From: a virus
Length of the DNA: 57,707 nucleotides
Virus record (IMG/VR): IMGVR_UViG_3300025276_000004
Span: 1-57,707 of that record
Direction: 5' to 3' (one strand)
The position numbers were made by a program, and so were the translations under genes. Numbering within the stretch: position 1 is the first letter of the stretch; every line of letters begins with the position of its first letter. This document shows positions 15,569 to 16,580 of this stretch, in pieces. The notes under the pieces are model-generated. The model saw only the letters and a program-made list of their open reading frames with translations, did not search any database and was not told the DNA's origin.

Positions 15569-15591
15569 AATCTGACCACAGGGGTCAGATT
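15569..15591 (+). promoter_or_regulatory. Loop-conserved hairpin 2 (candidate hairpin promoter)
   Basis: Nine-pair perfect arms AATCTGACC/GGTCAGATT around loop ACAGG, then TTTAAAAGATTTTTT. Lies 44 bases before the SSB start. The loop is identical to that at 20990-21012 while the arm differs by paired changes. Confidence 0.65.
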
Positions 15592-16139: not shown

Positions 16140-16173
16140 CCCCTCAAGACCTGAGCAAGTCTATAAACTGCTT

Positions 16174-16295
16174 ATTTATTATTGTGAGTAGTCATCTAAG
16201 TACTTGTAGACCACATCCCAGTAGGGCAATGCTTCCAATAGGGAGATAGAACGTAGGTATCACACAAGATGTTCTGGCTACTCTCAATAGTAAAT
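16174..16295 (+). ncRNA. Candidate structured RNA with 21-bp closing stem
   Basis: Bases 16174-16194 pair with 16275-16295 (21 positions, one T-T mismatch, two G-T wobbles). Inside, ACATC 16213-16217 pairs with GATGT 16268-16272, and three small hairpins follow: CCC/GGG at 16217-16226 (sharing one base with the inner stem), CTTCC/GGGAG at 16232-16245 and GATA/TATC at 16245-16261. No convincing ORF. It sits 34 bases after the SSB stop and just ahead of a hairpin with T-run. Could be a small RNA, an RNase III target or an mRNA end element. Confidence 0.55.
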
Positions 16296-16303
16296 TCTCA
16301 TAT

Positions 16304-16371
16304 AAACCCTAGCTGACGCCTTTGAACCCTTCCTCCTTTCAGGTTCATAGTCCAGCTAGGGTTTATTTTTT
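16304..16371 (+). terminator. Rho-independent-type terminator after SSB
   Basis: Arms AAACCCTAGCTG (16304-16315) and CAGCTAGGGTTT (16353-16364) pair perfectly, with a second hairpin TGAACC/GGTTCA in the loop, followed by ATTTTTT. It would end transcripts carrying SSB and the structured RNA. Confidence 0.75.
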
Positions 16372-16382
16372 CTCAGAAAGGA

Positions 16383-16546
16383 ATCCCCAAGGGGGGATAC
16401 TATATTTAAAAAGTCTTCAAAAAGACTTTAGCAATTCGCCCACGGGGGGCGAATTTAAAAAGATTGCAGCTAAAGCTACTCTCTTTATTTCAAAAAGTTT
16501 CCATAGAAACTTTAAGGGTTCAAGGATCTCTAGAAGATCCTTGAAC
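16383..16546. other. Array of five stem-loops in a gene-free stretch
   Basis: Successive perfect stems: ATCCCC/GGGGAT (16383-16398), AAAGTCTT/AAGACTTT (16410-16429), AATTCGCC/GGCGAATT (16433-16455, described separately), AAAGTTTC/GAAACTTT (16494-16513) and a 12-pair stem GTTCAAGGATCT/AGATCCTTGAAC (16518-16546). The whole gap 16140-16697 contains no convincing gene; the rest, 16581-16697, shows only a ribosome-binding site (AGGAAAGG). Confidence 0.7.
16433..16455 (+). promoter_or_regulatory. Loop-conserved hairpin 3 (candidate hairpin promoter)
   Basis: Arms AATTCGCC/GGCGAATT enclosing CACGGGG, followed by TAAAAAGATTG. Same loop core and 3' flank as the other three family members. Lies 242 bases ahead of the gene at 16698. 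Confidence 0.6.
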
Positions 16547-16563
16547 TCAAAAAGCTGGTGATT

Positions 16564-16580
16564 ACCGACAAAAGGCACTT
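16564..16580 (+). repeat. 17-bp motif ACCGACAAANNGCACTT, copy 1
   Basis: Matches copies at 20502-20518 and 20535-20551 at all but two or three positions. All three are intergenic, on the same strand, near GCTGGT. Function unknown. Confidence 0.5.

Follow-up and report, generated by a model that had tools for sequence, protein, structure and literature searches.

What is the structured stretch that follows the single-stranded DNA-binding protein (SSB) gene in this viral genome? The whole stretch of DNA analyzed here (the window) is a 57.7-kb viral record of 57,707 nt, whose large terminase is 63% identical to that of Roseobacter phage CRP-7. Its gp2.5-like SSB gene ends in a TAA stop codon, and the region at the structure gave no blastn match against named phages. 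An earlier sequence-only reading had proposed an undescribed structured RNA at this site, a long rod formed by a 21-position pairing with one mismatch, and had suggested a small non-coding RNA, the long rod recalling 6S RNA, or an RNase III processing site.

The long pairing was borne out by the minimum-energy fold of positions 16174–16297, in which 11 bp (16174–16184 with 16285–16295) and 8 bp (16186–16193 with 16276–16283) flank a U-U mismatch (16185/16284); one extra pair (16194/16275) is possible and completes the 21 positions. An inner stem and three hairpins had been described inside the rod, and this was close, but the predicted fold contained four small hairpins. The folding energy was −36.9 kcal/mol compared with a mean of −24.0 in shuffled controls (z = −4.0), a value matched by 1 of 200 shuffles. 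When the flanking hairpin was included (16150–16380), z was −4.96 and none of the 200 shuffles was as good. No ORF explained the stretch, as had been claimed: a TTG ORF of 51 aa overlaps the rod 5' arm and another of 79 aa starts within the 12-bp hairpin. This hairpin, described earlier as perfect and followed by a T-run, was found as such, with arms AAACCCTAGCTG (16304–16315) and CAGCTAGGGTTT (16352–16363). The structured rod was therefore confirmed, but it had been treated as the whole story, and a 27-nt H-type pseudoknot lying directly 5' of it, 7 nt 3' of the SSB stop codon, had been overlooked. The knot surfaced when the regions behind SSB genes were compared.

Table 1. Features of the window behind and including the SSB gene
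Feature	Position	Strand	Basis
gp2.5-like SSB gene, 167 aa	15636–16139	+	PHROG 112, E = 1.7e-17
H-type pseudoknot	16147–16173	+	Strict descriptor; free-stem pairing tests; covariation in close relatives
Pseudoknot stem S1, AGAC/GUCU	16147–16150/16159–16162	+	
Pseudoknot stem S2, GAGCA/UGCUU	16153–16157/16169–16173	+	
Pseudoknot loop L1, CU	16151–16152	+	
Pseudoknot loop L2, A	16158	+	
Pseudoknot loop L3, ending AAAC	16163–16168	+	
5' arm of the long stem	16174–16194	+	Fold, covariation, tail composition
Branched top of the rod	16195–16274	+	Four small hairpins in the predicted fold
3' arm of the long stem	16275–16295	+	Fold and covariation
Terminator-like hairpin and T-rich run	16304–16370	+	12 perfect bp; compact counterpart in relatives

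To assess conservation, diverged relatives were found by scans with the portal protein and the downstream 70-aa protein, two record copies that were 99.8–99.9% identical to the window being uninformative. A near-identical rod was present in locus L118. In five distinct sequences (L097, L104, L129, L139, and L202), the rod had diverged but shared this outer stem, with little kept in the top between the two subtypes apart from GGTAYCACAC. In the alignment of seven distinct sequences, 96.4% of the cells of the pseudoknot and the 19-bp core stem were paired and six pairs were changed on both sides, whereas pairing fell to 32–46% in a slid control in which the partner was moved by 1–3 columns. The earlier reading had named unpaired arms in relatives as the observation that would speak against it; the arms were conserved as pairs, with compensatory changes, and so this test came out in its favor. 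For the stem alone, covariation drawn from few lineages may be regarded as good but modest evidence. In a pattern scan, the rod was limited to 8 contigs, which all belong to the phage group of the window. The rod is a separate structured RNA specific to one phage group. It is also a possible, putative RNase III processing site; the length of its helix (19–20 bp paired, with one mismatch) suits a substrate of this enzyme.

The order behind the SSB gene in this group was stop codon, pseudoknot, insert, and terminator-like hairpin. The insert consisted of the window rod (rod A), of a second type, rod B, in L087 and L092, of rod B plus a tRNA-Tyr-like gene in L088, or of nothing in L093; other relatives carried further elements and more knots behind SSB. 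Since this slot was filled by either rod, by a tRNA-like gene, or by nothing, the rod is a cargo RNA adjoining the knot, in a placement comparable to that of a tRNA. The long stem of rod B (ATTTGTGGATCTAAGT..ACTTAGATCCACAAAT; L087 2408–2640 and L092 2454–2640) showed, by eye, a compensatory change between both loci. Also by eye, the tRNA-Tyr-like gene of L088 (about 2540–2630) has an encoded CCA and lies between rod and terminator. In L097, L104, and L116, a highly conserved intergenic stretch of about 260 nt with multiple hairpins (ATACAACACACCTCCC...GTCAGGGTTCAT), RNA-like in appearance, was located downstream of the final knot that precedes the 70-aa gene, following a pseudoknot copy in the relatives read.

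A compact hairpin with a T-run occupied the equivalent place of the 12-bp hairpin in L092 and L087. In the window, the hairpin loop contains CCTCCTTTC (16332–16340), which resembles an anti-Shine-Dalgarno sequence and complements the GAAAGG ribosome sites of neighboring genes, and relatives kept TCCTTTCA in a comparable loop. A role of CCTCCTTTC as an anti-Shine-Dalgarno sponge was set aside, because L087 and L092 carry a plain terminator there. Further downstream (16376–16556), short GC hairpins were clustered with A-rich linkers between them, a cluster kept by relatives with changed stems, and ACCGACAA (16564–16571) was conserved 3' of it and was also found behind SSB in distant relatives. 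The cluster together with ACCGACAA is possibly an origin or promoter region. On the other side of the SSB gene, a hairpin, AATCTGACC-CACAG-GGTCAGATT, followed by TTAAAAGA, precedes the gene in the window (15569–15591); this hairpin was found after SSB in L018, L012, L097, and others, and is therefore a moving intergenic hairpin.

The pseudoknot was defined in a general form: S1 of 3–4 bp, a CU loop, S2 of 5 bp ending in CA/UG, one A or U, and a loop of 6–9 nt ending in AAAC. A strict descriptor of this form gave 107 matches in the window plus 155 loci (1.75 Mb) and none in the reversed sequence, with a single copy in the window. A loose pseudoknot scan that left out the conserved loop letters gave noise, with real match counts similar to shuffled ones, and for this reason the strict descriptor alone was used. 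One stem was left free in each search pattern to avoid circularity. Leaving S1 free gave 138 distinct matches, of which 130 paired at 3/3 positions, with 19 pair types, where about 5% would be expected by chance; with S2 free, 66 of 81 distinct matches paired at 4/4. Over 177 distinct copies, each pair was formed in 91–100% of cases, and the optional fourth S1 pair in 74%. The stem sequences varied freely among copies and only the loop letters were constant. The knot of the window is a single instance of an RNA element that is widespread among phages.

The element was present in more than 140 phage contigs, a count of sequences and not of independent events, with loci taken without phylogenetic weighting. 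Among the matches listed from an IMG/VR pattern scan, 76 of 80 loci fitted the full descriptor, with 117 matches in the listed loci compared with 3 in reversed sequence. One fully specified variant was found in at least 120 stretches of IMG/VR, whereas 85,000 genomes of bacteria and archaea yielded 28 loci; hence, this is mainly a phage element. The named phages that carry it infect cyanobacteria, Actinobacteria, Firmicutes, and Proteobacteria, and crAss-like phages carry it as well. Copies fitting the descriptor were found in phages of Nostoc, Mycobacterium, Paracoccus, Staphylococcus, Lactobacillus, Moorella, and Synechococcus, in the thermophile phage D6E and in crAss-like phages; a Vibrio phage copy fitted with a lower score, and those of Arthrobacter phages, Erwinia phages, and S-EIVl were read by eye. 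The knot was absent from the head-gene stretch examined in Staphylococcus phage phi11.

Several individual loci were of note. In the crAss-like phage cr7_1 (L384, 2466–2534), two different knots lie in tandem, 15 nt apart, upstream of a primase gene. In Staphylococcus phage B166 (L496, 1506–1542), the annotated BPROM-predicted promoter P5R overlaps the pseudoknot, and this promoter call is likely a misreading of the element. Three knot copies were located between GTCTCAATTCCACTATGGTTCAATTCAAA repeats in the Ignavibacteria sequence CP054675 (L351, 1773–3060), an arrangement that resembles a CRISPR array, with phage pseudoknots as the apparent source of its spacers. Finally, uncultured bacteria carried a micro-ORF of about 20 aa (MKRFxxPRxAHCxEGCxxxS*) with its own Shine-Dalgarno sequence and often a terminator behind it (L284, L289, L291, L329, L333, L336, L339, L343, L344, and others). 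In this chromosomal subgroup, the knot itself contains the UGA stop codon, almost always at an identical place; these loci gave no Rfam match.

The position of the knot was analyzed in 201 distinct viral copies with enough flanking sequence. In this set, 115 copies start 4–19 nt after a stop codon on the same strand (mode 5 nt, none closer than 4, typically 5–9 nt), whereas the opposite-strand control gave 8 of 201; about 40% of copies had no stop codon within 20 nt, and some of these cases will reflect missed small ORFs. Same-strand ORFs of at least 100 aa enclose only 1 of the 201 copies. The result was repeated with new loci (30 of 61, mode 5 nt). The preceding stop was TAA in 88 of the 115 copies. 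Distances to the next start were broad (quartiles 27, 60, and 170), and therefore the upstream gene is the one to which the element is linked. The upstream genes were of many kinds, with PHROG 1221 in 14 of 103 and head proteins or SSBs among the others. In the first set, a tRNA begins 3–14 nt 3' of 16 copies and was found 5' of none; 11 of these 16 tRNAs were Asp, possibly from few lineages. No tRNA was detected within 150 nt of the knot in the 61 new copies, so the association is lineage-bound. The order SSB stop, pseudoknot, tRNA-Gly was observed in Arthrobacter phage Molivia. The 9-nt tail 3' of the knot was U-rich and contained mostly 2–11% G compared with about 20% in the control, and its G-poverty was repeated on the 61 copies from new loci. 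The first 10 nt of the rod 5' arm lack G, which fits this tail.

The comparison with known systems supported the claim of an undescribed structured RNA, since none of the Rfam 15 families attained its cut-off in the window; when E values up to 10 were allowed, only weak matches appeared, far below their cut-offs. Rfam searches of a second knot copy and of 20 bacterial loci gave nothing relevant. The proposed likeness to 6S RNA did not hold: no Rfam 6S match was obtained at the gathering score or at E up to 10. 6S RNA is a single rod with a large central bubble, whereas the window rod has a branched top and adjoins a pseudoknot.

As for the knot, STAXI pseudoknots have been reported near genes for single-stranded DNA-binding proteins, integrases, and antirestriction proteins (PMC2864571). 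The likeness lies in the proximity to SSB genes; however, STAXI (RF01728) is a family of 153 positions from Enterobacteriales with two or three tandem knots and frequent UUCG loops. When its model was run at E up to 10 on the window and on six further records, some of them known carriers of the knot, nothing was hit, and this identity was rejected. Type III antitoxin RNAs are H-type pseudoknot repeats of 36–45 nt (PMC4627078). ToxI and CptI share the compact H-type fold with the phage knot but are repeats beside an RNase toxin gene; the identification as ToxI, CptI, or TenpI was rejected given the single copy in the window and the lack of an Rfam match, and none of the 10 window proteins scanned matched a toxin family. 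The preQ1-I riboswitch (RF00522), likewise a small H-type knot whose 3' loop is rich in A, sits in the 5' leaders of queuosine genes, unlike the phage knot, and has a ligand-binding loop for which the one-nucleotide L2 leaves no room; with no Rfam match at E up to 10, it was discarded. The T4 gene 32 leader has an H-type knot linked to an SSB message, placed in the 5' leader and involved in gp32 binding, whereas the window knot lies downstream of SSB and most copies of the element have a different gene before them. Retroviral and luteoviral recoding pseudoknots are H-type and lie 5–9 nt downstream of the decoding site. In contrast, the phage spacer is not in one frame, ordinary TAA stops precede it, and no downstream extension was identified behind the knot; a readthrough or frameshift role was rejected on the stop spacing of 4–19 nt across all three frames. 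REP and terminator hairpins and the L17 downstream element (RF01708) are, like the knot, structured 3'-UTR elements behind stop codons, but they are hairpins or host-specific elements, whereas the phage knot is common to phages of many phyla.

Structured 3'-UTR elements have been described as highly unusual in bacteria (PMC2864571). The open-access literature on phage pseudoknots and STAXI contained no description of this element, and there is a modest chance that one exists elsewhere in the literature. What appears to be new is the element with its reach and position; the fold type is already known. We know of no structured 3'-UTR element common to phages of cyanobacteria, staphylococci, mycobacteria, and Bacteroidetes (crAss-like).

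Our preferred reading, held tentatively, is that the knot may act within the 3' UTR to mark or protect the 3' ends of the upstream phage mRNA, here that of SSB, after processing. We infer this because the knot clears the terminating ribosome and needs no terminator, and because a few nucleotides separate its end from tRNA 5' ends, at which RNase P would cut. The knot would fold just outside the terminating ribosome, and the transcript would be cut or trimmed downstream by RNase P at a tRNA, perhaps by RNase III at the window rod, or by 3' exonucleases. Degradation would then stall a few nucleotides 3' of the knot and the upstream message would survive without a transcription terminator, while downstream tRNA or capsid genes would still be transcribed. 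In the window, rod and terminator would form a structured RNA unit that comes apart from the SSB message at the knot boundary or close to it. Several observations stand against this reading. The stop codon lies inside the knot in the chromosomal subgroup, so that clearing the ribosome is not universal; two stems of 3–5 bp are weak and might not stop exonucleases such as PNPase or RNase R; about 40% of copies are at least 20 nt from a stop; and the tRNA cases are mostly of one kind.

The knot could instead be a processing signal, although we regard this as unlikely: a host or phage endoribonuclease would recognize the knot with its U-rich single-stranded tail and cut operon transcripts between genes, and such a cut, equally doubtful, would separate the upstream gene from the downstream tRNA, capsid gene, or structured RNA. 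The knot does sit between genes of different demand. Scaffold proteins were the commonest named PHROG class downstream, and knots precede scaffold genes in S. aureus SA13, Lactobacillus phiEF-1.1, and D6E; the loop letters CU and AAAC are conserved, and the tail is A/U-rich and G-poor. Nevertheless, there is no obvious candidate for a single conserved nuclease that would act on phages of hosts as varied as cyanobacteria, Firmicutes, Actinobacteria, and Proteobacteria. The ribosome, by comparison, is common to all hosts, and a knot that meets it at termination might alter termination, recycling, or re-initiation and insulate the next gene. The sharp onset 4–5 nt after the stop codon and the constant place of UGA inside the micro-ORF knots agree with such a role, which we nonetheless judge improbable, since the 5–9-nt spacing is not in one frame, the next start lies at no fixed distance, and what follows is sometimes a tRNA and not a gene.

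Still less probable is that the knot replaces a terminator hairpin as a transcription pause or terminator-like signal, its 9-nt U-rich tail forming a weak RNA-DNA hybrid. The tail length equals that of the 9-bp hybrid in RNA polymerase, but C is not depleted in the tail, and tRNAs and head genes that need transcription lie directly downstream. Canonical terminators were no commoner after the knot (12/201) than after other stops (13/200), and a classical terminator role is unlikely and was not supported by these counts. Lastly, an anti-defense decoy that mimics ToxI-like type III toxin-antitoxin RNA and soaks up host RNase toxins, which phages do face, would share the H-type topology of the antitoxin repeats (PMC4627078), but it is very improbable for a non-tandem element with freely varying stems, kept loop letters alone, a fixed position behind stop codons, and no Rfam ToxI match.

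Considered as a class, the element, a knot of about 27 nt with constant loop letters and a G-poor 9-nt tail, placed directly behind stop codons in phages of most bacterial phyla, may define or guard mRNA 3' ends independently of terminators, a possibility for which we would claim somewhat less than an even chance on sequence comparisons. The novelty would lie in the RNA element as a class and not in the fold, and the mechanism would resemble that of known 3'-end protecting structures. If the knot does guard or create 3' ends, it would explain how long uninterrupted operons have their own message level for each gene, and it would provide a short tag with which phage transcripts could be annotated and synthetic ones stabilized. 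If its role were in processing or at the ribosome instead, the element would still indicate a host factor that most bacteria share.
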